Assembly (NCBI RefSeq): GCF_000058485.1
Contig: NC_008278.1
Location: forward strand, 5,016,962 to 5,080,961
Length of the DNA stretch: 64,000 nucleotides
Origin: Frankia alni ACN14a
GTDB lineage: Bacteria > Actinomycetota > Actinomycetes > Frankiales > Frankiaceae
Direction of reading: 5' to 3'
In this document: positions 9,872-56,678 of the stretch, piece after piece
How the letters are laid out: every line of letters starts with the position of its first letter
Position numbering within the stretch: the first letter of the stretch is position 1
Notes under the pieces: model-generated
Told to the model about the DNA's origin: nothing
The model's database searches: none
What the model saw: the letters and a program-made list of their open reading frames with translations, nothing else
Program-made: the position numbers and the translations under genes

Positions 9872-10648
9872 ATGACAAACAAGGAAACACGCGTCGCCGT
9901 GGTGACCGGCGCAGGCCGCGGAATCGGCCTTGCAATCGTGCAGGCCCTGGTCAGGGAGGGCTATGCCGTCGTCGCGGCGAGCCGCACGATCACCGGCGCG
10001 CTGAAGGAGTTGGCGCCAGACGCCCTCGAAATGGACCTTGGTACTCCCGAGGCGCCGGAACAGCTGGTTCGTCACGCTCTGGACCGACACGGCAGAATTG
10101 ATCTGCTTGTCAACAACGTCGCGGGTACCTCGACGCCTCCGGGCGGTTTCCTGCAACTCGACGACGACGCGTGGCAGCACACGTTCACCATGACGCTCAT
10201 GCCGACGGTCCGGACCACACGCGCGGCGCTCCCGAGCCTGCTGGAGCACCGCGGCGCGGTGGTGAACATCAGCTCGGTCAACGCCAGGCTGCCGCAGCCG
10301 CGGCTCGTGGCACAGTCAGCGCTCAAGGCGGCGGTGTCGAACCTGGGCAAGGCGCTGGCGGAGGAGTTCGGCGGCCGCGGGCTGCGGGTGAACACGATCT
10401 CTCCCGGTCCGGTGCTGACGGACCTGTGGACGGCGCCGGGCGGCCCGGGCGACATGTTCGCCCGCCGGGCCGGCGTCCCGCTTGAGGACTACATCGACCA
10501 GATCCCGTCGTCCATCGGTGTATCGACAGGCCAGTTCACCCGCCCGGAGGAGATCGCCGACCTGGTGGTCTTTCTGGCCTCAGGACGGGTCGCCAACATG
10601 AGCGGCACGGAACTTGTGATCGACGGTGGCATGCTGAAGTCCGTCTGA
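9872..10648 (+). CDS. SDR-family oxidoreductase lacking the catalytic Tyr
   Basis: This 258-residue protein has a short-chain dehydrogenase/reductase fold. TGAGRGIG is the cofactor loop, NNVAG follows beta-4, and NISS carries the catalytic Ser. PGPVLTDLW and the C-terminal substrate loop are also normal. In the active-site helix, however, the usual YSxxK reads AQSALK, so the Tyr is Gln while the Lys stays. Such changes usually remove classical dehydrogenase activity or mark a non-redox member. It stands alone on the plus strand, convergent with the halogenase gene and sharing a hairpin terminator. It is probably part of cluster 1 as a cyclitol-modifying enzyme, but its position outside the operon leaves that open. 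Confidence 0.8.
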   Translation: MTNKETRVAVVTGAGRGIGLAIVQALVREGYAVVAASRTITGALKELAPDALEMDLGTPEAPEQLVRHALDRHGRIDLLVNNVAGTSTPPGGFLQLDDDAWQHTFTMTLMPTVRTTRAALPSLLEHRGAVVNISSVNARLPQPRLVAQSALKAAVSNLGKALAEEFGGRGLRVNTISPGPVLTDLWTAPGGPGDMFARRAGVPLEDYIDQIPSSIGVSTGQFTRPEEIADLVVFLASGRVANMSGTELVIDGGMLKSV

Positions 10649-10671
10649 CACAGAACCGTCCGACCATGGAA

Positions 10672-10715
10672 CCGCCGGCTCCGAGAGAACTCGCACCCGG
10701 GGCCGGCGGCCTTTT
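10672..10715. terminator. Hairpin terminator between convergent SDR and halogenase genes
   Basis: An 11-base arm (10672-10682) pairs with 10699-10709, with one G-T pair, around a 16-base loop. It is followed by CCTTTT on the plus strand. It lies in the 92-base gap between two converging genes and could stop transcription from the SDR side, and possibly from both. Confidence 0.6.
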
Positions 10716-10740
10716 GCGTCGATATCCCTCTCGCCGCTTC

Positions 10741-12246
10741 CTACTGGAGGTTGGCGAGCCCCAGCCGGGGCCTCGTCACCACGTACAACCCCTGCCCGCC
10801 CTGCGGAACAGGCCCCAGCACCCGTTGCATGGCGGTGTCGAAGAACCGGGCTCGGGCCGCCGCCAGCTCGCGTTCCCCCGGCGCGAGGGAATCAATGTCC
10901 TGGGAGCCGTCCAGCGCCTTTTTCCACTCTGATTCGGTCAGCTCGGAGTGGTTGAGTGCCGATGGGTTCCAGTGCCAGCCGTCCCACTGAGCCATCGCCA
11001 TACCTGTGGCCTCGACGGCGGTGTCGAGTGTCGCCTGGGCGTCGCGCAGATCCTCGATCCCGGACACGACGTCCACGAACGCCTGCTTGATCTCGTCCGG
11101 GTTGGCGTCGCGGAGAGTGAGGCGTTGCGCCTCCCAGAAGTACGAGTCCTTCCCCTGGTTCTGCTGGTACAGGTTCGACACGACCACGAGCAGGCGAAGG
11201 TACGCCTGGCGGTACGACCGGTCATACAGGTCCCGTGCCGCCTCCTCACCGAATTCGCCACGTAGGACGCTTGCCAGGCTCGCCGCCGCGAGCAGCGCGC
11301 TGTACATGGCGAGGTGCACGCCCGTGGACAACAGCGGGTCCAGAAAGCAGGCAGCATCACCGACGAGAAAATATCCCGGCCCGGAGAATCGCTCAGAGGT
11401 ATAGGAGTAGTCCTGCTCGGCGCGCAGGGAGGACACCAGCTCGGCGGAGGGTAGCAGATTCTCGATCACGGGGCTCTCCCGGATCGCCGCGTGATAGATC
11501 GACTCAAGGCTCTCGCCGTTCTGGCGCCTGGAGTTGAAGACGTCCCGGTGCGTCACCAGGCCGACGCTGAGCTGCCCGTCACCGAGAGGAATTCCCCACA
11601 GCCAGCCGTCGGGTACATAGCAGATCGCAATCGCGCCCTCCGGCCCGGCGGGGAGCGGCGTCGCATTTTTCCAGTAACCCCAGACCGCGATGTTCCGGAA
11701 CACCTCGTGGTAACGGCGGGTGCGGAGATGGCGTGTCGTCATGAGGCCGGAGCGACCCGAGGCGTCAATGACGTGATCGAAGGTGATCTCGGCGTTGGTG
11801 ATTCCCGCGCCGGGCTGGGACCAGACCGCTGACCGCGGCCGATCACCGTCGAACGTGAGGCGCTGTACCTCCGCTCCCTCGAAAGCAGTCACTCCGAGCT
11901 CCCTGGCGTGCTCCAGCAGCACCTGGTCGAAGTCCGAACGCAGGACCTGATACGAGGAGGCACGGTCGTCCGTCGGATCCCCGAACGTGACGTCCCATTT
12001 CTCTCCCGCCCAGTCGAAATACGCTCCACGCTTGCGCTGGTAGCCTCGGCTCTCCACCTTCTCCCGGACGCCGAGCAGCTCCAGGATGGGCTGGCAGGAG
12101 GGTAGCAGGGACTCGCCGATGTGGTAGCGCGGGAACGTCTCCTTCTCCATCAGGGTGACGGAAATCCCTTCGCGGGCGAGGAGGCCGGCGGTGGTGGCGC
12201 CCCCTGGACCTCCACCGATCACAAGAACCTGCGTGGAATTCTCCAT
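10741..12246 (-). CDS. FAD-dependent halogenase (phenol/pyrrole type)
   Basis: The 501-residue protein starts with the FAD motif VIGGGPGGATTAG and carries the flavin-halogenase signature WxWxIP as WLWGIP at residues 215-220. GDAACFLDPLLSTGVHLAM is the second FAD segment. The family transfers chloride (or bromide) to an activated aromatic ring using FADH2, O2 and halide. Overall layout and length resemble the non-tryptophan group, such as the PltA, CndH and CmlS types. A salicyl group bound to the cluster's carrier protein, or the finished salicylamide, is the natural aromatic substrate here (inference). The ATG at 12246 has a good ribosome-binding site (GAAGGGAG). It is preceded by its own promoter-like sequence and separated by about 465 bases from the oxidase gene. 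No separate flavin reductase gene is seen in the window. Confidence 0.85.
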   Translation of the reverse strand: MENSTQVLVIGGGPGGATTAGLLAREGISVTLMEKETFPRYHIGESLLPSCQPILELLGVREKVESRGYQRKRGAYFDWAGEKWDVTFGDPTDDRASSYQVLRSDFDQVLLEHARELGVTAFEGAEVQRLTFDGDRPRSAVWSQPGAGITNAEITFDHVIDASGRSGLMTTRHLRTRRYHEVFRNIAVWGYWKNATPLPAGPEGAIAICYVPDGWLWGIPLGDGQLSVGLVTHRDVFNSRRQNGESLESIYHAAIRESPVIENLLPSAELVSSLRAEQDYSYTSERFSGPGYFLVGDAACFLDPLLSTGVHLAMYSALLAAASLASVLRGEFGEEAARDLYDRSYRQAYLRLLVVVSNLYQQNQGKDSYFWEAQRLTLRDANPDEIKQAFVDVVSGIEDLRDAQATLDTAVEATGMAMAQWDGWHWNPSALNHSELTESEWKKALDGSQDIDSLAPGERELAAARARFFDTAMQRVLGPVPQGGQGLYVVTRPRLGLANLQ

Positions 12247-12373
12247 GTTGCTCCCTTCGACAGCCTGTCCGAGAGGAACTGGGGTGATCTGCGCTGGGCG
12301 ACAGAGCGCTGCCGGCAGGGCGGAGATCGCCCGGGAACCTCATCACGACGCATATCGCGATTTCGGTTTGTTC

Positions 12374-12402
12374 AGGCTATGAGTCCCGATCGCATTTCTC
12401 AA
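12374..12402 (-). promoter_or_regulatory. Putative promoter of the halogenase gene
   Basis: On the minus strand TTGAGA (12402-12397) is followed after 17 bases by TAGCCT (12379-12374), about 120 bases before the halogenase start. The rest of the 12247-12711 gap shows no gene. An 8-bp inverted repeat (12672-12679 with 12691-12698) just after the upstream oxidase gene could be a weak terminator. Together these suggest that the halogenase gene is transcribed separately. Confidence 0.4.
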
Positions 12403-12711
12403 CCTGCGGCTGTGCGAGACCGTGCAGGCGGCGCGGCCGGAACGGGGCGCTCCGGGTGTGACGACGGCACCAGGACGCGACGGGGCGGCGCTACCGACTC
12501 CGGGAGCACAGCTCGACAGAACGGGATGGGCGGTGACGGGAACGAGCACAGGGCCTCTGTGGGGGAGCCGTGTCCCGCCGGCGAGACACGAACCGGTACC
12601 GGCGCTCTCCACCCGGCCCGGGCCGAACGAGCAGGCCGGGCCGGCTGGGAGCGAAGGCCGTGAGGCGGCCGGCGCCCCGATCGGTGCAACCGGGGCGCGA
12701 CGGTGGCGCCG

Positions 12712-14412
12712 TTATCCGGGAAGCTCGATCGACTGGGAGTGACGGAAGACGTTCTTCGGATCCCACCGCGCCTTGACCTGCTGCAGCTTGGGATAGTTTT
12801 CCTTGTAGTACAGGTCGTGCCAGGGGACCTTTGAGGAGTTGTAGGCCGGATCGGACAGGTCGGTGTCCGCGTAGTTGATGTAGCACCCGTCGGTCCGGTC
12901 ATTGGGAACGGGCACGCCACCGGTCGCGGCGTAGACGTCGGAGTAGAAACCACGAACCCAGGCAAGGTTCTTGGCGTCGTCGGCGGGGTCCGACCAGAAG
13001 CTCTGGTACAGCGCCTGCATCACGGAGCTACGATGCGGAAAAGCGGTTGCCGATGGCTGTGTCGCGTTGATGTTCCCGCCGAACGGCAGGAGCAGCAGCA
13101 TCGAGTTCGGGTTGGTGCTGTCGCTCGTGAGGTACTTGTAGATGGTTGCAGTCTCGGCAGCGGTGAACGATTTCCGCAGGTAGGCCGACTTGTGGTCGGC
13201 GCGAAGTGTGGGATTGGTCAGCACCGGGGAGTTGGTCGCGAGATAGCGAACAGACTGCAGCCAGGGCAGGTGCTGGGCCTTGACGATCTCCGGCATGGGG
13301 CCGAGCTCGCCGGTCGGCCTGATCATCGGTCCCGTCTCGGCGGCAACCCCGTTCCGAATCTCGTTGATGAAATCGGTCAGCACCTTCTCCGGGCTCGGTA
13401 TGCTCCCCTCCACCAGGGTGAAGATACTCACGCTTCCGTTGGATTTGTGGTTCAGGGCGAGCGAGCTGACGACCGCGACGCCGGGCGAGTCCGGGGCGCT
13501 GTTCCGCTCGTGCCATCCGCCGAAGTTCTGCAGGAGCCTGCTCAGCTTGTTCTGGTCGAGGTCGGACCAGGAGAAGGAGAGACCGTTCATGAGCATCGTG
13601 GCCGGCGGCTTCGGCAGCAGGGAGCCTGGATCGTCGGATTTTGCCGCGGGCGAGCGCATCCAGTAGCGGGTGACGATACCGTAGTTCCCGCCGCCGCAGC
13701 CGGTGTGCGCCCACCACAGGTCACGATTGGGGTCGTTGTCCTCCCTGGTGGCGACGACGCTTCGCGCCGTACCCGACTTGTCGACCACCACGATCTCGAT
13801 GGCGTACAGGTGGTCGACGACTATGCCGAACCGGCGAGAAAGCGGGCCGTCGCCGCCACCACAGATGTGCCCGCCAGCGCCCACGGAGTAACAGCGCCCA
13901 CCCGGTATGGTGACACCCCAGCCTCGGTACAGTGCCTCATACACGTTGAGAAGCCTGGCTCCGGCCTCCACGGCGAAAGCCTTCATTGCACTGTCGTAGT
14001 AGACCGCGTTCATCGCGGACATGTCGATCACTACCCGTACCGCGGAGTTGGCGACGAAGTCCTCGTAGCAGTGGCCGCCGCTTCGTACCGAGAGCTGCAG
14101 CCCGTTCCGGACGGCGGTCTGGACGGCGTCCACCACCTGTTGGGTCGAGCCGACCAGCTGGATGTAGTCGGGAGAGCCGACCCAACGCTGGTTGTCTCCG
14201 GTGATGAGAGCGCCGTAGCGTTGATCATCGGACTTGATCGTGACCGGTCCGAATCCGTGGCTCGTCGAGGTCGGTGCCGCGGGGGCCGTGCTGGCGGCCC
14301 GCGCCGTCCCGGCATCGACGAGCGACAGCGCACCAGATCCCATGGCAAGCCCCGCGGAGTTGCGCAGGAACGCGCGTCGATCCCGTATTTCGCCGGCGGA
14401 CTTCTCGTTCAT
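12712..14412 (-). CDS. Tat-exported berberine-bridge-type FAD oxidase
   Basis: This 566-residue flavoenzyme has an FAD-binding PCMH domain and a C-terminal BBE segment (YINYADTDL, then YKENYPKLQQVKARWDPKNV). H114 in RSGGHCYEDF and C184 in GGHICGGGDG sit where bicovalent enzymes such as AknOx and GilR attach FAD through His and Cys. The N-terminus MNEKSAGEIRDRRAFLRN plus a hydrophobic stretch ending in ARAA is a twin-arginine signal, so the enzyme should fold with its flavin and be exported. That signal is the reason for choosing the ATG at 14412 over an in-frame start at 14544. Such oxidases often do late alcohol-to-ketone or ring oxidations using O2. It may carry out the last step of cluster 1 outside the cell (inference). 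Confidence 0.85.
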   Translation of the reverse strand: MNEKSAGEIRDRRAFLRNSAGLAMGSGALSLVDAGTARAASTAPAAPTSTSHGFGPVTIKSDDQRYGALITGDNQRWVGSPDYIQLVGSTQQVVDAVQTAVRNGLQLSVRSGGHCYEDFVANSAVRVVIDMSAMNAVYYDSAMKAFAVEAGARLLNVYEALYRGWGVTIPGGRCYSVGAGGHICGGGDGPLSRRFGIVVDHLYAIEIVVVDKSGTARSVVATREDNDPNRDLWWAHTGCGGGNYGIVTRYWMRSPAAKSDDPGSLLPKPPATMLMNGLSFSWSDLDQNKLSRLLQNFGGWHERNSAPDSPGVAVVSSLALNHKSNGSVSIFTLVEGSIPSPEKVLTDFINEIRNGVAAETGPMIRPTGELGPMPEIVKAQHLPWLQSVRYLATNSPVLTNPTLRADHKSAYLRKSFTAAETATIYKYLTSDSTNPNSMLLLLPFGGNINATQPSATAFPHRSSVMQALYQSFWSDPADDAKNLAWVRGFYSDVYAATGGVPVPNDRTDGCYINYADTDLSDPAYNSSKVPWHDLYYKENYPKLQQVKARWDPKNVFRHSQSIELPG

Positions 14413-14886
14413 TATGGTGGCAGCTCCATTGTTGGCGAAGAAAGCTCGTGAGGGCATGAGAGCTGCCAGGGTCTCGCTGCCCGGCGCTCCGCCACGTTCG
14501 CGGACGTCAGACGCACCGCAAGGCTTTGTGAGACTCGCGACCACAGCCCCATGCGACTCCAGCCAATCGCAGTCTCAGGCGGTTCGGCAAGAAGCGGGTG
14601 AACGCTGCGCGCCGCCGCGCGAGTGGGGCAGCACGGACGAGCTCGCCGCCATCAGCGCCCGTGTGCCCGGTTGCCGAGAATGCGTTCGGTCAGATCAGGG
14701 CGCACTGAAGGAGACCGGCCCCCGGGGTCATCGACCTACCCCGAACCCGGGCTACCCAGAACCCGGGAGATGATGATCGAAAGTTGTGTTGGATCTCGTT
14801 GACACCCGGCTTTCCGGGTGCATGTTCGCCCGATGGGCGGCGCCGGCCCGGGCCGTTCAGGGCCGGGCGGGCCAGCTTGGACCCAG
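14413..14886. other. 474-base gap between cupin and oxidase genes, with a hairpin
   Basis: No gene is supported here. A perfect 7-bp hairpin (14803-14809 with 14814-14820, loop CTTT) lies about 67 bases after the cupin stop codon and lacks a T-run; it may be a terminator or RNA stabiliser for the 13-gene operon. Two direct copies of GAACCCGGG lie near 14740-14765. The promoter of the oxidase gene should be in this gap but was not identified. Confidence 0.45.
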
Positions 14887-15390
14887 CTACCCCTCGTCCT
14901 CCTCCAGCGACGGCTGCCACCCGTAGCGAGTGGCGATCTCTACTGCCCGGGGATAGTCCTCGGGTCCCCAGCGCGGAATGGGCCTGCCGGGCTCGGCCGG
15001 CTCGCCGGCCTCCACGAAGAAGTTTTCGAAGCCGCCGGGCGTGTAGAGGAAAACCATACGAACGGCGTGCACACCGTTATTCCGGAACGAATGACCGACT
15101 CCGCGTGGCACATGGATGAAGTCGCCCGTGCCCACCTGCCGGCTCTGCCCGCCGCTGCGGAACTCCAGACTGCCGGAGAGGATGTAGAACGCCTCGTCCT
15201 CAAGGGTGTGGATGTGCGGCGGCGGCCCGCTCCCGGGCGGGATCGAAGCTTCCAGAAAGGACAGCGAACCGCCGGTGCTATCCCGGCTCGCCTTGATGGT
15301 GTAGGCGTCGCCGTCGAACCAGGTTGTCGGCCCCTTTCCGGCGGGTACATGGTTGATCCGCAGTTTCTGTTCCGACGCCTGGTCATCCAT
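14887..15390 (-). CDS. Single-domain cupin protein
   Basis: The 167-residue protein has a classic cupin_2 barrel. Motif 1 reads PPHIHTLEDEAFYILSGSLE with His, His and Glu metal ligands, and motif 2 reads VPRGVGHSFRNNG with the final His. It ends the 13-gene operon and overlaps the preceding VOC gene by 8 bases. Cupins of this quercetinase-like form can be dioxygenases, isomerases or dehydratases; a role in tailoring the cyclitol ring is inferred. It is distinct in sequence from the five cupin genes further upstream in the operon. Confidence 0.85.
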   Translation of the reverse strand: MDDQASEQKLRINHVPAGKGPTTWFDGDAYTIKASRDSTGGSLSFLEASIPPGSGPPPHIHTLEDEAFYILSGSLEFRSGGQSRQVGTGDFIHVPRGVGHSFRNNGVHAVRMVFLYTPGGFENFFVEAGEPAEPGRPIPRWGPEDYPRAVEIATRYGWQPSLEEDEG

Positions 15391-15988
15391 TGTGCGCCAC
15401 CGGTCCCTCGTTGTTCCATGGCTGATCCGGGCGGTAGAGGCGGGCCCGTACCTGCTGTTCGTAGGGGATTCCCACGGGCAGGTTGATCAGTTCCATCTGC
15501 ATTCCCCACGGCGTGAGAAAGTACACCCAGCGGTCGCCCGCGATGGGACCGTCGGTGATGGTTTCCGGCTCACCGAGTACGTGCACTCCAGGCCAGGAGC
15601 GCAGGTAGGCAGCGGCGAGGTCCACGTCCTCCACGTGTATCGCCAGATGATGTCCGCCCCAGTCACTGTTGCGGGGAATCTGCCTGCGCTGGTCCGGGGC
15701 GGTGTACTCGAAGAGCTCCAGGTTCGTCACGGCGCCGAGACGCAGCATGGCGACATGCGCACGGGCGTCCGCAGCCACGCCGAGCTTGCGGGTCATCCAG
15801 TCACCCGTGGGGTCCTCCACCGGTCCCTGGACGTAGAGAAGCTCCGCGCCCAGGGCCTCGGTGAAGAATCGGACCGCCTGGTCGAGATCGGGGACGGTGT
15901 AGGCGACATGGTGAACCGCGTTCGCGCCCGGGATGCCACGGGGCCGACCGGATGGTGCGACGGCGCTCCGCCGCGGGCTGATGTTCAC
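15383..15988 (-). CDS. VOC-family protein, probable cyclitol epimerase (CetB-like)
   Basis: This vicinal-oxygen-chelate (glyoxalase/bleomycin-resistance fold) protein has 201 residues. HHVAYTVPDLDQAVRFFTEA starts the first module and HHLAIHVEDVDLAAAYLRS the second. Metal-ligand candidates are the His of each module and the Glu of NLELFEY and MQMELINLP. In the cetoniacytone cluster a VOC protein, CetB, epimerises 2-epi-5-epi-valiolone to 5-epi-valiolone. This gene lies directly after and overlaps a C7-cyclase gene (15985-15988), so the same role is the best guess. Other VOC functions remain possible. Confidence 0.8.
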   Translation of the reverse strand: MNISPRRSAVAPSGRPRGIPGANAVHHVAYTVPDLDQAVRFFTEALGAELLYVQGPVEDPTGDWMTRKLGVAADARAHVAMLRLGAVTNLELFEYTAPDQRRQIPRNSDWGGHHLAIHVEDVDLAAAYLRSWPGVHVLGEPETITDGPIAGDRWVYFLTPWGMQMELINLPVGIPYEQQVRARLYRPDQPWNNEGPVAHNG

Positions 15989-17649
15989 GCGACGCCTCCC
16001 CCGGCCGATGCCTCGTCCGGCCAGATGGTGGAATTGAGCAGGCCGTGGAACTCGAGCAGTAGCCAGTTCAGATCGTCAGCGCCGTGATTTCGCACGTGGT
16101 GCACTGCCGAGGGCCCGGCGACCACCAGATGGCCCGGACGGAGCGGATGCGACTCCTCGCCGAGGAGCAACTCGCCCTCGCCGGCGAGGATGAAGTAGAG
16201 CTTCGGCGCAAAGCCCGGCGCCTTCTCCACGCAGGCGGCGCCGGGAGGCAGCGACGACCACCGGATGCTCTCCCAGACGACGCTCGACGCGTCGCAGGCG
16301 ATCACATGGTCGCGGTGCGCTGCTTCGGCGCCGTCAGGCACGTCGCCGAGTTCGCCGATGTCATACACGTCGGTGACGATGGGGTGGCCGTGCCCGCCTA
16401 CGTCCGACAGCCGCGGGGCCGCGCGGGTGGGCAGGTCGAGGTCGCGGAGAACCTCGGCCGCTCGTGTGACCTCCTCGTGGGTCAGGTCACTGACGAAGCG
16501 GGCGTCGCCGATCCCGACCGGTAGCGGGATGCGCTGCAGCCCGTCGCGGTGCCGGGTGGTCTCGCGCAGCGCGTGTGCCAGCAGGTCCGTCCCGCACAGC
16601 GGATGCCAGACCGGCAGGCGGAGACGTTTCATCAGGTTGAACACCCGCGCGCGATCCGGCGCGGAGATCAGACCACGTCGTTCGGCGACAATCGTGGTGA
16701 GCGCCATGTCGACGCTGACGGCCTCGCCGTGCAGCAGCGCCGGCAGGGCGCGCATCTCCAGTGTGGGGCTGAAGGAATGCCCGTAGTCGACCCGGCGCTC
16801 GAGGTTCCTCTCCCACAGGTTCGGCTGAAGCTCCCTCAGCATGCCGTCGACAGCCCGTCTGATCACCTCGCGGCCGACGGCGTCGCCGACAGCCGTCCGT
16901 CCCGTGAGACGCTCGGCCAGCAACGTCTCGGCATGCTCCTCGAGAAGGTCGAACAGATGCGCGTCCAGGACAAGGGAGATCTTGAGGATCTCCGCCAGCC
17001 CGTTGCTCACGTAACGATCGCCAAGGGTTGCCAGGAAACCGCGGTCCAGCAGAGCGACGGACGGCGCGAAGTAGCTGCCCAGCCGATTTTTGTGGCCGTT
17101 GAAGTTCACGCCCGTCTTGATCCCAACGCCGGCATCGACGAGTCCGAGCAGTGACGTGGGGACGCGGATGTAGGGAGTGCTGCGGCGGTAGAGGCTGCTG
17201 GCGAGGCCGACGACGTCCAGGATGATTCCGCCACCGATGCCGATGATCGGCTCGTTCCGCCGGGAGATGCCGAAGGAGTCCAGCCCCTGCACCAATGTGA
17301 GGACGGACTGCATGTTCTTGGCCTCTTCGGAGGCGGGCAGGACACACAGTTCGTAGTCGCAGTCGTTGCTGTCAAGATATCGATGAATATCACGCCCGTA
17401 GAGCGCGTGGATGTTGGCATCCACGACCACGAAGCGGCGGACGCGGTGTACGGACCCCGGGGATCCCGCTTCGATCAGTGCCCTGTTCTCCGGATCGAGA
17501 ACACCGTCGGTGATGCGTACGTCGTAGCTCACGGTCAGTTCGTTCCGAACCGTCCAGCGGGGGAACGGATCGGCTGGCCCGGGCCCGTCCGGCTGTCGTC
17601 CCGTAGACCCAGGGAGCGCCGGAAACCGGCTGTCCGGGGACCCGGTCAT
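15985..17649 (-). CDS. Sedoheptulose-7-phosphate cyclase (EEVS-type) fused to a C-terminal cupin
   Basis: Residues about 30-420 are a sugar-phosphate cyclase of the dehydroquinate-synthase superfamily. The NAD site GIGGGIILDVVGL, the strand VPTSLLGLVDAGVGIKTG, the substrate segment NGHKNRLGSYFAP and the zinc ligands (Glu in NGLAEILK, His in DYGHSFSPTLEM, His in LLHGEAVSVDMA) are present. GHSFSP and the overall form are those of C7-cyclitol synthases rather than AroB, so 2-epi-5-epi-valiolone is the expected product. Residues about 425-554 are an extra cupin domain (PGFAPKLYFILAGEGELLLG and a His-bearing second motif). Normal EEVS proteins end near 400 residues, so this is a fusion. The start overlaps the aminotransferase stop by 4 bases. 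The cupin may act on the cyclase product (inference). Confidence 0.85.
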   Translation of the reverse strand: MTGSPDSRFPALPGSTGRQPDGPGPADPFPRWTVRNELTVSYDVRITDGVLDPENRALIEAGSPGSVHRVRRFVVVDANIHALYGRDIHRYLDSNDCDYELCVLPASEEAKNMQSVLTLVQGLDSFGISRRNEPIIGIGGGIILDVVGLASSLYRRSTPYIRVPTSLLGLVDAGVGIKTGVNFNGHKNRLGSYFAPSVALLDRGFLATLGDRYVSNGLAEILKISLVLDAHLFDLLEEHAETLLAERLTGRTAVGDAVGREVIRRAVDGMLRELQPNLWERNLERRVDYGHSFSPTLEMRALPALLHGEAVSVDMALTTIVAERRGLISAPDRARVFNLMKRLRLPVWHPLCGTDLLAHALRETTRHRDGLQRIPLPVGIGDARFVSDLTHEEVTRAAEVLRDLDLPTRAAPRLSDVGGHGHPIVTDVYDIGELGDVPDGAEAAHRDHVIACDASSVVWESIRWSSLPPGAACVEKAPGFAPKLYFILAGEGELLLGEESHPLRPGHLVVAGPSAVHHVRNHGADDLNWLLLEFHGLLNSTIWPDEASAGGGVA

Positions 17650-18908: not shown

Positions 18909-18934
18909 GTGCTCTCCTTTCTCCGCGCCCGGGG

Positions 18935-20443: not shown

Positions 20444-20479
20444 CGGACGTCTCCTTTCCTCTCGTCGGTCGGGACTGGT

Positions 20480-20866
20480 TCACGAGACGGGGGCGCGAGG
20501 CGGCAGGCTTCGGCTTATCGAGGCGGGCATCATCGCGAGAAGCAGCAGCTCCAGCGGAGTATCAAAAGGCGCGCGCCAGTGGCCGCGGGCCGTCTGCGGA
20601 CAGATGAGCAGGTCGCCCGTGTGCACCGGCCGGGCACCTGATCCAGCGTCAAGGTACGTCCCCTCACCGGCAAGCACGAACCAGACCTCCTCGATCTCAT
20701 CCCGACCGCGACCATCGAGGGAGGCACCCGGTGCGAGCCGGGCGTAGTCGAACGACTCGCACTCGCTGTACAGCATTCCTCGCCGACCAAGGCAACGCCA
20801 GGCGGTCTCGCCGATACCGTCGTCCACGGACAGGGTGAGGCCGCCGGAAATGCTGGACACGATCAT
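20480..20866 (-). CDS. Small cupin-like protein, type A, copy 2
   Basis: This 128-residue cupin-fold protein starts MIVSSISGGLTLSVDDG and is clearly homologous to the protein at 21569-21964 (shared ETAWRCLGRRGMLYSECESF-like start, EEVWFVLAGEG strand, GDLLICPQ-type motif). The classical HxH motif is poorly kept: the first motif has ARLAPGASLDGRGRDEIEEV with few His. Metal binding is therefore uncertain and it may be a partner subunit. The ATG overlaps the stop of the fused bicupin by 4 bases. Its function in cluster 1 is unknown. Confidence 0.75.
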   Translation of the reverse strand: MIVSSISGGLTLSVDDGIGETAWRCLGRRGMLYSECESFDYARLAPGASLDGRGRDEIEEVWFVLAGEGTYLDAGSGARPVHTGDLLICPQTARGHWRAPFDTPLELLLLAMMPASISRSLPPRAPVS

Positions 20867-21576
20867 CTTTTCCTGCCCGGTGTCAACTCGACGGCAAGAC
20901 TGACGACAAAGAACTCCAGGCCCTCGCGGCCGGCCTCCACCCTGATGCTGCCGTGGAAGGGCACGCTCACCGAGACGCCCTGCCGCAGGCGAACGGAAGT
21001 CGAGGCGTTTGCCGCTACTCCAGCGCCGCTCAACGTGTACAGAACATGTTCCTCGGCGTCGGCCAGGAGTGATTCGCTCGCGCCCGGATCCAGCCGGACC
21101 AGTCTGGCCCGGCGCAGCGGGCCGGAAAGCACTTCCGTAGGGTCGATCTCGCCGGCCTCGCGCATCCTGATCACAGCCGCTCCAGCGCCGGGTGGTCCGG
21201 GTCGTGCGGTGCCCAGCACCGGACCCGGCACTTCCGTTACAAGCCAGACGAGCTCGTCCGAACCCGCATTGCGCAGACCATGCCGGGTTCCGAGCGCGGT
21301 CAACACCACGTCACCCGCGGTGACGAACCGATCTCGGCCGTCGATCGTCATCACGCCCGCGCCAGAGACGATGTAGTCGAGTTGCTCGGTGCGGCTGTGC
21401 AGATGTTCTCCGCTGGCTCCCCCGGGGGGCAGCCAGGCCCATTCCACCGCCTCCCAGGGCCCGAACATGTTGTTGCGGCGGGCCAGACACTTCCACTGCG
21501 CGCGCTTTTCGCCGCCGTGCATTCCGTAGACGAACGAGGGGTCGTCCACGGTGGTTGTCACGACCCGGTCAACCAT
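20863..21576 (-). CDS. Bicupin, fused form (type B, copy 2)
   Basis: The 237-residue protein contains two parts. The first half (FGPWEAVEWAWLPPGGASGE, HLHSRTEQLDYIVSGAG, LGTRHGLRNAG) is a cupin with HxH, Glu and His ligands. The second half (VIRMREAGEIDPTEVLSGPL onward) is a second beta-barrel lacking these ligands. The two halves match the separate proteins at 22308-22700 and 21981-22286. The ATG at 21576 follows GGAGGCCCTC; a much longer frame upstream is only the shadow of the neighbouring gene. It overlaps the preceding type A cupin by 8 bases. The first half could be an active metalloenzyme and the second a structural or substrate-binding domain. Confidence 0.8.
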   Translation of the reverse strand: MVDRVVTTTVDDPSFVYGMHGGEKRAQWKCLARRNNMFGPWEAVEWAWLPPGGASGEHLHSRTEQLDYIVSGAGVMTIDGRDRFVTAGDVVLTALGTRHGLRNAGSDELVWLVTEVPGPVLGTARPGPPGAGAAVIRMREAGEIDPTEVLSGPLRRARLVRLDPGASESLLADAEEHVLYTLSGAGVAANASTSVRLRQGVSVSVPFHGSIRVEAGREGLEFFVVSLAVELTPGRKR

Positions 21577-21964
21577 GAGGGCCTCCAGTACGCGGGGTTC
21601 GAGGACTGCGCACGGGCAGTTGTCGGGAGACGGCGGCAGGCAGGACCGCGAGGCCCAGAAGCTCGAGCGAGCTCTCGGTGTCGCTGCGCAGCCAGCCGCC
21701 CGGGCCGCCGGCCCACAGGACGAGATCGCCCGGACGCACCGGTATCCAGCGGTCAGCGTCATCACGGAAATGACCATGACCATCGAGCACGAACCACGCC
21801 TCCTCGACGCCGCTGCGGCCGCGGCCGTCACGGACGGCGCCGAGTCCCAGCCGCATGTAGTCGATGGCCTCGCATTCGCAGTGCAGCATTCCGCGGCGGG
21901 CAAGACAGCGCCAGCCGATGTCGCCCGCGGTCGTGCTGAGACCGAGCACGGTCGAAACAATCAC
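21569..21964 (-). CDS. Small cupin-like protein, type A, copy 1
   Basis: This 131-residue homologue of the protein at 20480-20866 starts at a GTG (21964) preceded by an ideal GGAGG six bases away. That start gives MIVSTVLGLSTTAGDIGWRC, which aligns with the start of its paralogue. Core strands are CECEAIDYMRLGLG, EEAWFVLDGHG and PVRPGDLVLWAGG. As in the paralogue, few metal-ligand His residues are visible. It lies between the split and the fused bicupin genes and ends inside the start of the fused one. Its function is unknown. Confidence 0.75.
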   Translation of the reverse strand: MIVSTVLGLSTTAGDIGWRCLARRGMLHCECEAIDYMRLGLGAVRDGRGRSGVEEAWFVLDGHGHFRDDADRWIPVRPGDLVLWAGGPGGWLRSDTESSLELLGLAVLPAAVSRQLPVRSPRTPRTGGPHG

Positions 21965-21980
21965 GTCGACCTCCGGTGTC

Positions 21981-22286
21981 TCAGGGCACGCTGAGGCTGG
22001 CGATGAACAGCTCCAGCCCCTCCGCGCCCGCCTCGGCGGTGACACTGCTGCCGAGCGGCAGAGTCAGGGCCACGCCACGCTTCAACGGCACGGTCGTGGA
22101 GCCGGTCACGGCACTTCCGCTTCCGTCGACCGTGAACAGGGTGTGCTCCTCGGTGTCCGCGACCAACGTCGTGCGTTCACCCGGCGCAAGCCGGGGCAGA
22201 CGGATCCGGCCCAGCGGCCCGCTGAGGAATTCACCCGCGTCGATCTCACGCACCTCGCGAAGATTGATCACAATGGAGTTTGCCAC
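21981..22286 (-). CDS. Stand-alone second half of the type B bicupin (copy 1)
   Basis: This 101-residue protein starts at a GTG after GAGGGGTGAAC. It aligns with the C-terminal half of the fused bicupin: REVREIDAGEFLSGPLGRIR against MREAGEIDPTEVLSGPLRRA, then ADTEEHTLFTVDGSG against ADAEEHVLYTLSGAG. It lacks HxH metal ligands. It lies 21 bases after the stand-alone first half, so the two probably form a complex equivalent to the fused protein. Confidence 0.8.
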   Translation of the reverse strand: MANSIVINLREVREIDAGEFLSGPLGRIRLPRLAPGERTTLVADTEEHTLFTVDGSGSAVTGSTTVPLKRGVALTLPLGSSVTAEAGAEGLELFIASLSVP

Positions 22287-22307
22287 CGTTCACCCCTCAG
22301 ATCGGTA

Positions 22308-22700
22308 CTACTGCCGGAAACCAGACAGGGCCGCGGTCGCCGCCGGCCCCAGCACCTCGATGACGAGCCAGCCCAGTTCGTGTCGGCCCGTGTTCCGCAG
22401 GCCATGGACCGTGCCGAGACCGGTGAGAACAAGGTCGCCAGCACCGACGGGATGATTTTTCCCGTCGATGGTCATCACACCAGTGCCAAACACGATGAAG
22501 TACAGCTCCTCGGTGCGGCTGTGAAGATGCTCGCCGCTGACCCCGGCGGGGGGTAGCCACGCAAACTCCACCGCCTCCCAGGGCCCGAAGAGACTGCTTC
22601 TGCGGACAAGACACTTCCACCGCGAAAGCCCGGCGGCACCGTGGACACCATGGACGTATGACGGTTCGTCGAGGTCCGCAACGACTGCTGCCTCGGTCAA
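22308..22700 (-). CDS. Stand-alone first half of the type B bicupin (copy 1)
   Basis: This 130-residue cupin starts at a TTG (22700) preceded by AAGGAGG about ten bases away; a longer frame with a non-family leader exists. It contains FGPWEAVEFAWLPPAGVSGE, HLHSRTEELYFIVFGTG and GLGTVHGLRNTG with the two His, Glu and final His expected for a metal-binding cupin. It matches the N-terminal half of the fused bicupin almost motif for motif. It is the first cupin after the carrier protein gene in the operon. Confidence 0.8.
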   Translation of the reverse strand: MTEAAVVADLDEPSYVHGVHGAAGLSRWKCLVRRSSLFGPWEAVEFAWLPPAGVSGEHLHSRTEELYFIVFGTGVMTIDGKNHPVGAGDLVLTGLGTVHGLRNTGRHELGWLVIEVLGPAATAALSGFRQ

Positions 22701-22740
22701 TTCCTTTTCCCTCCTTCGGACGCTCGCGGAAGGATGGTGA

Positions 22741-23001
22741 CTAGCGCGCCCGCAGGCTGTCGAGATACGCAAGCCAATCACTGAGAGTGGGCGCGGAGGC
22801 CAGTTCCTCGAAGGCCACGGGAAAGCCCGCGCGACGCCAGCGACCTACCATGCGCATGATCTCGATCGAGGTCAGCCCGAGCAGGATGAGATTGACATCA
22901 GGCGGGACGTCCTCGGGCGGGCTCCCGATCAACTTCGCGATCATCTCTCGTAGCTCCGGCTCGCCCGGCAGGTCCGTGGTTGCCTTGGAATTGGTCGCCA
23001 T
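22741..23001 (-). CDS. Aryl/acyl carrier protein
   Basis: This 86-residue carrier protein has the phosphopantetheine site LGLTSIEIMRM (Ser45), close to the GLDSIR-like sites of aryl carrier proteins. It starts at an ATG with a strong GAGGAGGG site and overlaps the end of the AMP-ligase gene by 104 bases. The ligase should load it with salicylate, and the KAS III-like protein should move the aroyl group on. The halogenase could act on the carrier-bound aryl group (inference). Confidence 0.9.
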   Translation of the reverse strand: MATNSKATTDLPGEPELREMIAKLIGSPPEDVPPDVNLILLGLTSIEIMRMVGRWRRAGFPVAFEELASAPTLSDWLAYLDSLRAR

Positions 23002-24631
23002 GTTCGCCCTCCTCGTGGGCTGTCGATGGCCGGTCCCGGCTGGTCATAGACGCCAACGCCTTCTTGTCGATCTTTCCCAGCGGTGTGACGGGGAGTTCGT
23101 CGACGAACTCGACCTGGTCGGGAAACTTGTACTCGGCCAGTCCGCGCTGCTGAAGACCCTGGTTGAGCTCGTGCCGTGACGGGCGCGTGCCGGCCGTGAC
23201 GAGAAAGGCGCCGATTCGTTCGCCAAGCAGCTCGTCGGGAAGGCCGACGACGGCAGCACGCAGTATCCCCGGAAGGGTGAGCAGGTGTTCCTCCAGCTCC
23301 GCCGCCGAGGTCTTGTTGCCGCCGCGGATCACGACGTCCTTGATCCTTCCTTCGATGACCAGATCGCCGTTCGCGGTCAGGCGGGCAAGGTCACCGGTGC
23401 GGTAGAAGCCGTCGGCCGTGAATGCACGGGTGTTGTGCTCGGCGGCGCGGTAGTAGCCCCGCAGGGTGTACGGCCCGCGGACAAGGAGTTCACCCACCTC
23501 TCCGCCGGGCAGATCCCGCTCGTCCTCGCCGACGATCCGAATCTCGTCCTCCTCGGACAGCGGCGTGCCAGTCGTACCAAGGACCGTCTCCGGAGGATCG
23601 CCCTGCCTGGTGAGGGTAAGCAGACCCTCGGCCATGCCGAAGACCTGCTGCAGCTCGCAGCCGAAGGCGGGGCCGATCCGTTCGACAAGAGATCGCGCAG
23701 GCCGCGCGCCGCCGAGCTGCACCAGGCGCAGGCTCGACAGGTCACGGGTGTTCCACTCCGTCGCCTCCAGCCACAGCTGGGCGAGGGTGGGGACCAGAGA
23801 GGTCACGGTGACCCGGCATCGCTCGATCGTGGCGAAGCAGTCGTCGGTGGTGGGATCGTCTGCCAGCACGACGGTGCCCCCGGACAGCAACGTTCCGATG
23901 ACGCCGGGACAACCCCAGGTGAAGTTGAACTCCAGCGGCAGCACCGCCAGGTAGACGTCCGCCGCGGTGAAGCCGATAAGGTCCGCCGTCGCGCGGCACT
24001 GGTAGGCGTAGTCGTCGTGCGTGCGCGGGATGATCTTCGGGATGGCCGTCGTTCCGCCGGAAAGCAGGAAGAACGCAACATCCGATGCGTCCTGCTCCGG
24101 AAGCCTCCCGGCTTCGCCGTCCACAGTGGACAGATCGATGAGGTCGTCACCCGCGTCGCCGAGGGCGAACAGCAACCTCAGGCCGTGTGTACCCGCCCGA
24201 ATCTCCCGGGCCAGCGCTGGGTGATCAAATCCTCGGTGGCGCCCGGGAAACACGTAGGCGGCGGCGCCGGTGATGTCGCACAGGTACGCGATCTCCCGCG
24301 ACCGGTGCGCCGTCAGCGCGAACACGGGCTTGGCCCCGAGCCGAAACAACGCGAAGCAGGTGGCCACGAACTCCGGCACGTTGGGGAGTTGCACCACGAC
24401 CCGCTCGCCGGCGCGCAGGCCGTGGCCCGCGAAACCGCCGGCCAGCCGGTCGACCCAACGGTCGAGCTGGGCATAGGAGATTCGGCGCCCGCCGTGCACC
24501 AGGGCGGGAGCCGGCCCGTGCCGCTCCGCCGCGGTGCGCAGCAGCCCGCCCAGCGACTCCCCACGCCATAGGCCCCGTGACCGGTAGCGCTCGGCCGCCT
24601 CATCCGGCCACGGAATGCATCCGGCCAGCAC
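22898..24631 (-). CDS. Salicylate-type aryl-AMP ligase (DhbE/YbtE family)
   Basis: This stand-alone adenylation enzyme activates an ortho-hydroxy aromatic acid and loads it on a carrier protein. LLSGGTTAIPKIIPRTHDDY is the A3 P-loop, QQVFGMAEG the A5 region, YRTGDLARL A7 and the terminal Lys is in PLGKIDKKAL. In the pocket, NFTWGC aligns N236 with Asn235 of DhbE, which binds the 2-hydroxyl. It aligns C241 with Ser240, a position reported as Ser for 2,3-dihydroxybenzoate and Cys for salicylate enzymes. Salicylate is therefore predicted. The GTG at 24631 follows GGAGGGCTGAC directly behind the KAS III stop. The last 35 or so residues are non-family and overlap the carrier gene. Confidence 0.9.
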   Translation of the reverse strand: MLAGCIPWPDEAAERYRSRGLWRGESLGGLLRTAAERHGPAPALVHGGRRISYAQLDRWVDRLAGGFAGHGLRAGERVVVQLPNVPEFVATCFALFRLGAKPVFALTAHRSREIAYLCDITGAAAYVFPGRHRGFDHPALAREIRAGTHGLRLLFALGDAGDDLIDLSTVDGEAGRLPEQDASDVAFFLLSGGTTAIPKIIPRTHDDYAYQCRATADLIGFTAADVYLAVLPLEFNFTWGCPGVIGTLLSGGTVVLADDPTTDDCFATIERCRVTVTSLVPTLAQLWLEATEWNTRDLSSLRLVQLGGARPARSLVERIGPAFGCELQQVFGMAEGLLTLTRQGDPPETVLGTTGTPLSEEDEIRIVGEDERDLPGGEVGELLVRGPYTLRGYYRAAEHNTRAFTADGFYRTGDLARLTANGDLVIEGRIKDVVIRGGNKTSAAELEEHLLTLPGILRAAVVGLPDELLGERIGAFLVTAGTRPSRHELNQGLQQRGLAEYKFPDQVEFVDELPVTPLGKIDKKALASMTSRDRPSTAHEEGEHGDQFQGNHGPAGRAGATRDDREVDREPARGRPA

Positions 24632-24632
24632 G

Positions 24633-25676
24633 TCAGCCCTCCACGATCGGTTCACAGGGCGTGAGGATCTCCACCACCGCGCAGCCGGCACACGCACCGG
24701 CGCCCGCGCTGACCAACAGCACACGGTCGCCAGGGACCACCTGGCCGGTCGTCCACAGGTGTTCCAGGCCGAGGAGGACCTCCGTGACGCTGGCGTGTCC
24801 GACCTGGCGGATGTACTCCCAGACCCCGCGATCGAGATCGACGCCGAGCGGTTCGAGGAACAACGTCTCGAGCCCGTCCCGGTTGAACCCGGGATGCGCG
24901 ACTCTGGTGATCTCGTCGAGAGTGAGACCTGCCTCCTTCAGTGTGAGCTCGGTGACCGCGGCCACCGCGTCGCCGAAATGACCGATTGGCGGTGCGATTC
25001 CCTGTGCCCACTGCTGACGCATGAAATCGCGGCGGCTCTCGAAGTCGAGTGGCCGCCCAGTGGTTATGCCGGGCGGGAACAACGGCTCGTCCCCTCGATC
25101 CAGAGCCTCCATCCGCGACTCGGACATCGACCTGATGGCGAGAAGCCTGGCGAAGCCGTCGATCCGGGACAGCACGACGGACGATGCGGAATCGGCCAGC
25201 ACGAAGGCCGATGACGACCGCCAGCGGTCGACGAGCGGCGTGGAGAAGTTGTCCGCCGCCGTGACCAGCGCGGCGGGGTGGGAGGAGTTCGCGACCAGTC
25301 GGTTCGCACCAGCCTCGATCGCGGCCAGCATGCCCAGGCAGGCCTGCCGGATCTCCACGGCCGGCACCGGGCGGTCCAGGGTCTTCCGCAGGATGTAGTG
25401 CGACGGTGACCATCCTTCCGGACCCTGATGGTGGGTGTAGCTGTGCAGGAGGATCCCGAAGTCGTCCTCGTCGAGTCCCGAGCGGCGGACTGCGGTACGG
25501 GCGGCAGCAACGGCCATGTCGGGGGCAGGCACCGACCCGCCGACCGCAACCGAGACGATGCCCGACCTTCGCCGGGTGGCCTCCTCGTACCAGCCCTGTG
25601 CCACCGCGTGATCGGTACTGACCCGCTCCGGCACGATGCTGCCGATTCCGGCGAGGTAAAGGCCCTCGGTCCTCAT
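24633..25676 (-). CDS. KAS III-like acyltransferase
   Basis: This thiolase-fold protein of 347 residues resembles FabH. The nucleophile is Cys113 in RQACLGMLAAIEAG and the His is His261 in VAHPGFNRD. The third catalytic residue, normally Asn, is His294 in QVGHASVTEV. KAS III relatives in antibiotic clusters (ChlB3, PtmR and CerJ types) transfer acyl or methylsalicyl groups from a carrier protein to a sugar or cyclitol instead of making a C-C bond. Placed between salicylate synthase and salicylate ligase genes, this one probably transfers salicyl to the aminocyclitol. It overlaps the salicylate synthase stop by 4 bases. Confidence 0.85.
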   Translation of the reverse strand: MRTEGLYLAGIGSIVPERVSTDHAVAQGWYEEATRRRSGIVSVAVGGSVPAPDMAVAAARTAVRRSGLDEDDFGILLHSYTHHQGPEGWSPSHYILRKTLDRPVPAVEIRQACLGMLAAIEAGANRLVANSSHPAALVTAADNFSTPLVDRWRSSSAFVLADSASSVVLSRIDGFARLLAIRSMSESRMEALDRGDEPLFPPGITTGRPLDFESRRDFMRQQWAQGIAPPIGHFGDAVAAVTELTLKEAGLTLDEITRVAHPGFNRDGLETLFLEPLGVDLDRGVWEYIRQVGHASVTEVLLGLEHLWTTGQVVPGDRVLLVSAGAGACAGCAVVEILTPCEPIVEG

Positions 25677-27019
25677 GCATCGACCTCTTCCCTGATCTCG
25701 TTGGCAACCAGGAAGCGCGCCACGCTGTCGAGCTTCTCGCAGGTCTCCTCGAATTCCCTGGCTGGCTGTGACTGACCGACTATCCCGGCACCCGCACGCA
25801 GCCAGGTGCGACCGTTCTCGCGGAAGACCGTGCGCAGGACCAGTGCGGCGTCCAGCGCGCCGGAACTGTCGACGGTCAGGACTGCGCCGCCGTAGAGGCC
25901 GCGACGGTCCCCCTCGTGGCGTCGAATCGCGGCGAAGGCCGCTTCCTTTGGTACTCCCGACACGGTGACCGCGGGAAAGACAGCCGTGAAGGCGTCCCAG
26001 GCGTCCGCCCCGGCCGCCAGCTTTCCGGTCACCTGGGAGGCGAGATGCTGGACGCTACCCCTTTCCTCGACCGACATGAGGTCGCGAACTCCCACCGAGT
26101 TCGGTTCGCAGACCGTGAGCAATTCGTCATGGCCGATCTTGACGGAGATGGCGTGCTCATAGATCTCCTTCGCGGACGACAGGAGTTCCAGGCGCCGGCG
26201 GGTGTTCTCCGCGGCGCTCTCCGTGAATGCCCTCGTGCCGGCAAGCGGGTGGCTGACGACCGTGCCGTCCACGTCGACGCTGACCACGATCTCCGGGCTG
26301 AAACCGGCTGCTTCCAGCCCGTCCAACCGCAGCAGGAAGGACCGGGCGGGATTGTTCCTACGCCTGCCAAGAACATAGGAGGCGGCCAGGTCGATGTCGC
26401 TGTCAATCTCGATCTTCCGCGACAGGATGACCTTCTGCAACACATCTGCAGTGATCTCCTGGACGGCGCTCGCGACTGACGCGCAGTACTCGTCTCGGCC
26501 GATGTTCCGCACGTTGATCGGCGCCGCCCGGCGGTGGGCACTGTCCGCCCGCGTGGAAAGCAGGTCGACGAGCGTCGCAAGGGTGCCGGGGTCGCTGGAA
26601 CGCACGTGAGCCACGCCGGCGTGCAGACGCACCTCGCTTCGCGGCACGATGAGGTGTAGAAGCCGCTCGTTGTCTAGACGCTCCCGGCTGCCGTCCCTCG
26701 CGTAGGAAAGTTCGAACGCGGCCCAGCCATACACTCGCCACTGCGGCAGCGGCAGCATGGCGAGCAGCTCACTGACCCGCCGCAGCGGCCGGCCGTCCCA
26801 GGCAAACTCCGCCTCCCGCACACCTCGCAGCGTCGCGCCGTCGCGGTCGAGGCGAATATCGGCGAGAATGCCGCCCGCATAGCACCAGATGCTCTCGTTC
26901 TCATAGACGACGAACTCGTGGTGGGGACCGGACTCGGCCAGTCGGGCCATGACGGCCAGGGGATCTTCCGATGTCTTGACTCTGGCTTCGACGTAACACG
27001 GCGAGCCCATGTTGTCCAT
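25673..27019 (-). CDS. Salicylate synthase (MbtI/Irp9-type, chorismate-utilising)
   Basis: This 448-residue enzyme belongs to the anthranilate/isochorismate synthase family. VLQKVILSRKIEI carries the Lys general base, HPLAGTR and SAKEIYEH carry Mg-binding and substrate residues, and FPAVTVSGVPKEAAF and AGAGIVGQSQPAREFEETCEKL-like C-terminal segments match MbtI and Irp9. Those convert chorismate to salicylate in one protein, so no separate lyase is needed and none is seen. The start MDNMG at 27019 is chosen because earlier residues in the open frame are not family-like. It is the first gene of the 13-gene operon. Confidence 0.9.
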   Translation of the reverse strand: MDNMGSPCYVEARVKTSEDPLAVMARLAESGPHHEFVVYENESIWCYAGGILADIRLDRDGATLRGVREAEFAWDGRPLRRVSELLAMLPLPQWRVYGWAAFELSYARDGSRERLDNERLLHLIVPRSEVRLHAGVAHVRSSDPGTLATLVDLLSTRADSAHRRAAPINVRNIGRDEYCASVASAVQEITADVLQKVILSRKIEIDSDIDLAASYVLGRRRNNPARSFLLRLDGLEAAGFSPEIVVSVDVDGTVVSHPLAGTRAFTESAAENTRRRLELLSSAKEIYEHAISVKIGHDELLTVCEPNSVGVRDLMSVEERGSVQHLASQVTGKLAAGADAWDAFTAVFPAVTVSGVPKEAAFAAIRRHEGDRRGLYGGAVLTVDSSGALDAALVLRTVFRENGRTWLRAGAGIVGQSQPAREFEETCEKLDSVARFLVANEIREEVDA

Positions 27020-30654: not shown

Positions 30655-30691
30655 TGGTATGCCATCCTCGGATCGGACATCACCAGGCAGC

Positions 30692-56673: not shown

Positions 56674-56678
56674 ACCCC

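Follow-up and report, generated by a model that had tools for sequence, protein, structure and literature searches.

Gene content of the operon

The window, by which we mean the whole stretch of DNA analysed here, comprises 64,000 nt (5,016,962-5,080,961, forward strand, of NC_008278.1) from Frankia alni ACN14a, a nitrogen-fixing root symbiont whose genome (GCF_000058485.1) is a single contig of 7,497,934 bases. It contains an operon on the minus strand, running from 27019 down to 10741, and a divergent SDR gene at 9872-10648 on the plus strand, as judged from open reading frames (ORFs), third-position GC and family searches (Table 1). In this operon, genes for a C7N ring of the cetoniacytone type stand together with genes for making, loading and transferring salicylate, and with a flavin oxidase and a halogenase. 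An initial annotation, made from the sequence alone, had named these genes as one operon, and ORF, Pfam, NCBIfam and PDB searches found all of them there; the limits it gave are the ATG of the SDR gene (9872) and the ATG of the salicylate synthase gene (27019). It overlooked five ORFs for cupins, and also the cupin domain that the cyclase carries as a fusion.

On sequence grounds the cyclase is of the EEVS type, as had been annotated. Its PDB scores are led by 4p53 (428 bits), which we take to be ValA, and 5tpr (251 bits), with a dehydroquinate synthase next at 139 bits and the DOIS entry 2d2x at 74 bits. In a quick tree of 97 rows, with the two AroB-like proteins of the genome as root and no DOIS row, the window cyclase falls among EEVS relatives. 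Of the seven cyclases from salicylate operons (described below) five were placed in this tree, and these five form a single branch with an SH-aLRT of 100; elsewhere 35 forks are open and several branches are long. The pyranose-oxidase-like protein matches TIGR02462 with an E value of 4.9e-121, yet scores 405 bits against a curated cut-off of 545. Pfam, NCBIfam and PDB searches back the VOC, DegT, KAS III-like, BBE and halogenase assignments. The route to cetoniacytone follows the logic of EEVS, VOC protein, pyranose oxidase and aminotransferase, and all four families are present together here, a likeness drawn by family and not from the Cet sequences.

The salicylate synthase scores 442 bits against TIGR03494, above the curated cut-off of 325. 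The AMP ligase reaches 596 bits with the dihydroxybenzoate (DHB) model, below its curated cut-off of 724. At the places of DhbE residues 240 and 337, the window ligase has Cys and Leu, the salicylate signature of aryl-AMP ligases. Counting the window, orthologues carry the Cys in five of five cases and the Leu in four of five, with Ile in Streptomyces sp. ODS25. The reading of this enzyme as a salicylate-type ligase in the initial annotation is supported, and it fits the salicylate in the published heterologous product. The carrier protein had a rival candidate at 21984-22286, which we rejected: that ORF is half of a cupin, and the aryl carrier protein (ArCP) lies at 22741-23001. The best PDB relatives of the KAS III-like protein are 7vyu (422 bits), ChlB3 (281 bits) and CerJ (158 bits), and it is likely to be the acyltransferase of the cluster.

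Table 1. Features of the operon and its borders, in window coordinates.
Feature	Position	Strand	Basis or remark
SDR oxidoreductase, divergent	9872..10648	+	ATG at 9872; 75-79% identity, orthologue in all six relatives
FAD-dependent halogenase, DklH (FRAAL4634)	10741..12246	-	L48, K72, F88, L306
BBE-type flavin oxidase with Tat motif	12712..14412	-	start chosen by Tat motif and relatives
CUP1, cupin with intact HxH-E site	14887..15390	-	58-64% identity in the four loci of the scan that hold the operon
VOC protein, candidate CetB-like epimerase	15383..15988	-	family searches; 73-80% identity in six relatives
EEVS-type sugar phosphate cyclase, residues ~30-405, with a fused C-terminal cupin (~455-535)	15985..17649	-	PDB, PF07883, tree
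DegT/DnrJ-type pyridoxal-phosphate (PLP) aminotransferase	17646..18908	-	family and PDB searches; 71-79% identity in six relatives
Pyranose-oxidase-like GMC oxidoreductase (P2O, CetL-like)	18935..20443	-	TIGR02462, THW motif
CUPe, single cupin, HxH lost	20480..20866	-	family search, sequence reading
CUPd, bicupin, metal ligands H59, H61, E65, H100	20863..21579	-	ligands kept in family
CUPc, single cupin resembling CUPe	21569..21964	-	Pfam E 4e-4, below cut-off
CUPb, lone second-half cupin, probably FRAAL4644/cetJ3 by gene counting	21981..22286	-	no Pfam match
CUPa, cupin, HxH-E site judged intact by eye; from the gene count probably FRAAL4645/cetJ2	22308..22694	-	exact start unsure
ArCP, GLTS phosphopantetheine site	22741..23001	-	PF00550, E 1.3e-11
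Salicylate-type AMP ligase, probably FRAAL4648	22898..24631	-	DHB/salicylate-type match, pocket residues
KAS III-like acyltransferase (ChlB3/CerJ group), Cys113, His294	24633..25676	-	PDB search
Salicylate synthase	25673..27019	-	TIGR03494 above cut-off; ATG start at 27019
Transposase-like ORFs (label by eye)	27568..28674	+	upstream of operon; one genome match, 40 of 334 first-look candidates scored

The same operon in six other genomes

A scan of genome contigs with the whole cyclase as a single protein gave no match, and one with an alignment of five EEVS sequences did find relatives, 128 in all. We examined the best 80 of these 128 loci, searching up to 10 kb on each side of EEVS for the operon's genes by tblastn (E<1e-8); contig ends or the 10-kb limit truncate some of the loci, so the counts are lower bounds. 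Salicylate synthase, ArCP and DegT were each found in four loci, CUP1 and DAHP synthase in five, P2O in seven, the AMP ligase in 10, KAS III in 18, BBE in 26, SDR in 35 and the halogenase in none. The four loci with salicylate genes belong to Actinokineospora pegani, Amycolatopsis decaplanina, Streptomyces sp. ODS25 and Actinophytocola oryzae. Their operon order is the same as in Frankia, with 52-80% identity per gene (47-48% for the fused cupin domain where it is present). At first BBE seemed absent from these relatives, which proved wrong: the 21-kb loci were too short, BBE and SDR lie just outside the 10-kb flank in all four, and upstream stretches show both genes in six relatives.

Within the genus Amycolatopsis, KAS III has a match at E<=1e-100 in 5 of 80 genomes, and three of the five hold the full cluster; the other two have KAS III, ligase and ArCP, with no cyclase in the stretch. 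Together with the window this makes seven clusters (Frankia, three further genera and three Amycolatopsis genomes), spanning Frankiaceae, Pseudonocardiaceae and Streptomycetaceae. Salicylate synthase, KAS III, ligase, ArCP, the cupins, P2O, DegT, EEVS, VOC, CUP1, BBE and SDR all recur in the six relatives, where BBE and SDR stand on the other side of the operon compared with Frankia. Because gene order is the same in six other genomes, the grouping is not due to chance, which upholds the annotated union of a cetoniacytone-like C7N set with a salicylate-loading and acyl-transfer module as one conserved unit. BBE and SDR are present in 7/7 clusters. Six of the seven have a class II DAHP synthase (PF01474, one tested) immediately upstream of salicylate synthase, five have an MFS transporter and four a small regulator (Rrf2 family by Pfam, one tested).

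Only one of 13 genomes of the window's genus, the window's own, has the KAS III gene. In a class sample of 393 genomes the cyclase was matched at E<=1e-40 in 20, and the best match outside the window genome is 57-58% identical, below the 69-73% of the clade.

Some of the genes also occur in other settings. Loci in Antribacter and Promicromonospora (L061 and L070) hold EEVS, an aryl-AMP ligase (44%), KAS III and BBE, with no salicylate synthase match in the locus, and perhaps follow the same logic with another aryl acid. In A. pegani, a second set of salicylate synthase, KAS III and ligase (55, 53 and 61%; L136) stands without a cyclase match in its stretch, so the salicyl-transfer module appears to be used elsewhere too.

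Cupins of the operon and the fused cupin domain

Between ArCP and P2O lie five small cupin ORFs, from 20480 to about 22.7 kb, which look like two cassettes of a bicupin plus a cupin, the first bicupin being split into two ORFs. We considered whether this split marks decay and rejected the idea: four relatives that we read show the same split, so it is old. In the intact bicupin, H59, H61, E65 and H100 are invariant or at least 90% conserved over 44 sequences. These conserved ligands and a structural model with pLDDT 92.5 make it probable that the bicupin functions as a metal enzyme. Its fold matches are scattered over many cupins, among them oxalate decarboxylase, the ureidoglycine aminohydrolase type and seed proteins, and point to no reaction.

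The cyclase is fused to a cupin in four of the five cyclases read, and that of A. pegani ends cleanly without one. Two further relatives have a cupin match just 3' of the cyclase and may carry the fusion too. Read by eye, both HxH histidines are missing from the four fused copies. Because of this loss, and because the domain is absent in A. pegani, we read the fused cupin as non-catalytic and disfavour a catalytic role. The cyclase-cupin model is mediocre (pLDDT 70.5), and no argument rests on it.

Bicupins were found in 50 of the 80 loci, single cupins in 49 and VOC proteins in 53; in 44, at most 300 bases separate EEVS from the start of the bicupin that follows it. All three accompany EEVS in 47 loci, including two from myxobacteria (Archangium, L049 and L053). 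This recurrent set would form a common C7-cyclitol module.

Identity of the locus and its published record

The locus is the fralnimycin/DklH cluster of F. alni ACN14a, which has already been cloned and partly studied; both its genome position and four published halogenase residues agree. The window halogenase carries all four residues published for DklH (L48, K72, F88 and L306). Interpolation between FRAAL4612 and FRAAL4744, with coordinates from PMC10252897, gives it the label 4633.7, against the published FRAAL4634. The carbamoyl-phosphate synthase subunits at 56.7-61.1 kb interpolate to 4680.7 and 4684.1, and they are published as FRAAL4683/4684 (PMC10252897). The initial annotation knew of no characterised cluster with this exact set of genes, a statement that fails here, as the same locus has been expressed from a fosmid and its halogenase characterised.

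According to the accessible text of PMC8539768, fosmid 9B-A9 of F. alni ACN14a yielded fralnimycin in Streptomyces albus and carries the halogenase FRAAL4634, DklH. Fralnimycin is a salicylate-tryptophol ester, which a review assigns to an 'aminocyclitol-like BGC'. The presence of salicylate in fralnimycin indicates that the acid was made and transferred in the heterologous host. The part of the review available to us states that tryptophol genes were not found on the fosmid and deems uptake of a host precursor likely. DklH is described as chlorinating flavonoids; the proposed active residue is Lys72, and the proposed site of attack is the position ortho to the 7-hydroxyl (PMC8539768). The published homology model, built on CndH at 78% cover, places Leu48, Phe88 and Leu306 in its pocket (PMC8539768); in our search, the match of the halogenase to PDB 3e1t covers residues 7-401 of 501.

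The cluster also appears in an expression study, in which the alder protein AgLTP24 induces 107 F. alni genes (PMC10520049). Among them are FRAAL4648, the AMP ligase (log2 fold change 2.50), FRAAL4645 (2.48) and FRAAL4644 (2.42); FRAAL4645 is named cetJ2 (a cupin, 'fralnimycin synthesis') and FRAAL4644 cetJ3 (PMC10520049). The locus is thus known, and what is new here is the seven-cluster family, the cupin array and a proposed native route. Wu's 2009 cetoniacytone paper reportedly pointed out a comparable group of genes in F. alni ACN14a.

A proposed native product and route

We think it probable, at roughly 60%, that the native product is a salicyl-C7N aminocyclitol, perhaps of the epoxyquinomicin type. 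Epoxyquinomicins are salicylamides of a C7N epoxy ring, some of them chlorinated. The proposal draws on gene content and conservation; the salicylate in the heterologous product and the halogenation of flavonoids are published. The core is kept in seven clusters, the halogenase in only two of them, and no tryptophol genes are reported on the fosmid, which together suggests that fralnimycin is a shunt product beside the native aminocyclitol.

In the route that we propose, salicylate synthase would convert chorismate to salicylate, which the ligase and ArCP would activate as salicyl-AMP and hold as salicyl-ArCP. In parallel, EEVS would turn sedoheptulose 7-phosphate into 2-epi-5-epi-valiolone. 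Epimerisation by the VOC protein, oxidation by the pyranose-oxidase-like enzyme and amination by DegT would then give a C7N amino ring. The metal-bearing cupins could dehydrate, isomerise or epoxidise this ring, the weakest step of the scheme. The KAS III-like enzyme would move salicyl from ArCP onto the ring amine and, in the Frankia strain, DklH would chlorinate ortho to the phenol. To form fralnimycin, the same acyl-transfer machinery would load salicyl onto tryptophol of the host. We infer the ring steps, the amide, the epoxide and the site of the BBE reaction alike.

The BBE oxidase is proposed as an exported last oxidase. It carries the motif RRAFL, of the twin-arginine translocation (Tat) type, together with RSGGHC and GRCYSVGAGG, whose His and Cys we take, by the motif rule for bicovalent flavin adenine dinucleotide (FAD), to mark an enzyme of that type. 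RR[AS]FL is present in the BBE proteins of six of the seven clusters, and the best PDB matches are 2wdw (a putative hexose oxidase), TamL, AknOx and CrmK. Such an enzyme may carry out a final alcohol-to-ketone oxidation outside the cell, turning a quiet precursor into an active, quinone-like antibiotic. If epoxyquinomicins C and D are the reduced forms, as we assume, an exported last oxidation would predict that A and B are active and that C and D are nearly inactive. Epoxyquinomicins A and B are indeed reported as active on Gram-positive bacteria, and C and D as almost inactive (PMC8532670).

It is tempting to go further, though only tentatively, and see in this operon family an unrecognised epoxyquinomicin-type pathway in seven clusters. 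Its product would be a C7N epoxyquinol salicylamide, held as a quiet alcohol and armed outside the cell by the Tat-exported flavin oxidase. Fralnimycin would be the shunt of a relaxed salicyl transferase, and the bicupin and cupin that accompany EEVS and VOC in 47 of the 80 loci would be a ring-tailoring machine for C7-cyclitols.

Alternatives and points against the proposal

Several observations weigh against a salicyl-C7N aminocyclitol of this type. The sole product described as isolated in the literature available to us is a salicylate ester of an indole alcohol, not an aminocyclitol, and fralnimycin is the compound that expression of fosmid 9B-A9 yielded. A salicyl tryptophol ester of this kind might therefore be the intended product, with the C7N genes separate or acting as helpers. 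The KAS III-like relatives of the ChlB3/CerJ group would suit such an ester, as enzymes such as CerJ acylate hydroxyls. Even so, we find it unlikely: in the available review text the fosmid has no tryptophol genes and the precursor is deemed likely to come from the host, in 7/7 clusters the C7N genes share an operon with those for salicylate, and the five tested cyclases share one branch.

O-Acylation bears equally on a product that retains the ring. This could be an O-salicyl ester, or a fully aromatised salicylamide or aminophenol, of the C7N unit, with cupins that dehydrate or isomerise rather than epoxidise; no obvious epoxidase was found among the cluster genes. We hold this to be rather doubtful, since the DegT aminotransferase is kept in six relatives, so that a ring amine is expected, and since the cetoniacytone and epoxyquinomicin precedents are epoxides. 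Sequence by itself does not tell an amide from an ester here, or an epoxide from an aromatised ring. Salicylate synthase, AMP ligase and ArCP are also typical of siderophore pathways, and four of the six relatives have the small regulator gene (Rrf2 family in the one tested), which raises the idea of a salicylate-based metal chelator on a borrowed cyclitol scaffold. That seems very improbable: family searches found no non-ribosomal peptide synthetase, hydroxamate or siderophore uptake family among the operon genes, and the halogenase, the oxidase with its Tat motif and the C7N genes fit a chelator poorly.

Other points count against details of the proposed salicylamide route. The ligase pocket His (DhbE His234) is Phe in five of five orthologues (AHN to EFN), and since this His is gone and one orthologue lacks the Leu, the acid could be a substituted salicylate. 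The halogenase is missing from five of the seven clusters and present only in the window and Streptomyces sp. ODS25; of the five genomes without it in the cluster, two lack any match at E<=1e-20 genome-wide, a 53% match lies elsewhere in A. decaplanina and two were covered within about 33 kb only. The known substrates of DklH itself are flavonoids, attacked ortho to the 7-OH, and do not include salicyl compounds (PMC8539768). Of the seven clusters checked, that of A. oryzae showed no Tat motif in its BBE, and no genome could be matched by name to the epoxyquinomicin producer. The AgLTP24 table also sets 'fralnimycin synthesis' beside FRAAL6859, far from the locus (PMC10520049), and, in the available part of a nodule proteome report, most secondary-metabolite proteins are underabundant or not detected.

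The Frankia copy may, moreover, be impaired, because two genes of its relatives are missing: DAHP synthase (in 6/6 relatives) and the MFS exporter (in 5/6). Searches with the relatives' DAHP synthase, MFS and regulator gave no match in the 64-kb window at E<1e-3. Elsewhere in the Frankia genome a single class II DAHP synthase was found, 42-48% identical in two pieces of one frame. The place that DAHP synthase would occupy in the window has about 550 bases with no called gene, followed by the transposase-like ORFs. The cluster had been annotated as complete-looking, which is an overstatement.

Neighbouring regions

Beside the cluster, a tRNA-Leu (670-743), a large serine recombinase (858-2900) and a phage-type integrase (7209-8405) perhaps mark the border of a genomic island. 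A minus-strand group at 29407-39779 encodes a dapdiamide-synthase-like ATP-grasp ligase, a DapE-like peptidase, an MFS protein, a weak glutathionylspermidine-synthase match and IlvE-like, CADD-like and HMGL-like proteins. By position it should hold FRAAL4656, reported at 0.03-fold in nodules. Further along, 54045-63983 holds a PLP-dependent tryptophan synthase beta-like protein, tryptophan synthase alpha proteins, the carbamoyl-phosphate synthase subunits and an L-amino acid ligase. This region fits FRAAL4681-4687 and looks like another specialised pathway; several of these proteins are reported as more abundant on propionate than on fumarate (PMC10252897).

Comparison with known systems

In the accessible parts of the earlier work, fralnimycin and the promiscuous DklH are described with no native pathway to explain them: the ester and the halogenase alone are reported, to which our analysis adds the seven-cluster family, the cupin array and a native route. 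Comparing seven clusters shows which genes belong together, and it supplies relatives in which the DAHP synthase and exporter missing from Frankia are present. As in the ChlB3/CerJ/DpsC acyltransferases, the family Cys is retained in the Frankia KAS III-like enzyme, for which the ring amine is the putative acceptor. The Frankia BBE protein resembles SfmCy2 and NapU, at the level of family and motif, in joining a Tat motif to the BBE family in an antibiotic-type cluster. SfmCy2 and NapU are reported to take part in prodrug maturation (PMC11375781).

Epoxyquinomicins A-D come from Amycolatopsis sulphurea MK299-95F4, and epoxyquinomicin C is the parent of DHM2EQ. The available portions of the literature on these compounds mention no gene cluster for them. 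Amycolatopsis also holds orthologous clusters, in 3 of 80 genomes, and through these the compounds may be linked to the Frankia locus. We offer a candidate pathway for the epoxyquinomicins, and the seven-cluster comparison makes the role of EEVS-linked cupins a defined question.

A further comparison is with the cetoniacytone A cluster, whose CetA, CetB, CetL (listed as a pyranose oxidase) and CetM share, by family only, the EEVS, VOC, pyranose oxidase and aminotransferase logic of the Frankia locus; two Frankia genes bear the names cetJ2 and cetJ3. Compared with that cluster, the Frankia locus adds salicylate synthase, ligase, ArCP and KAS III, and its cyclase is fused to a cupin. Whereas cetoniacytone is an N-acetyl epoxy-cyclohexenone, the salicyl module of the Frankia operon suggests that another acyl group is used.

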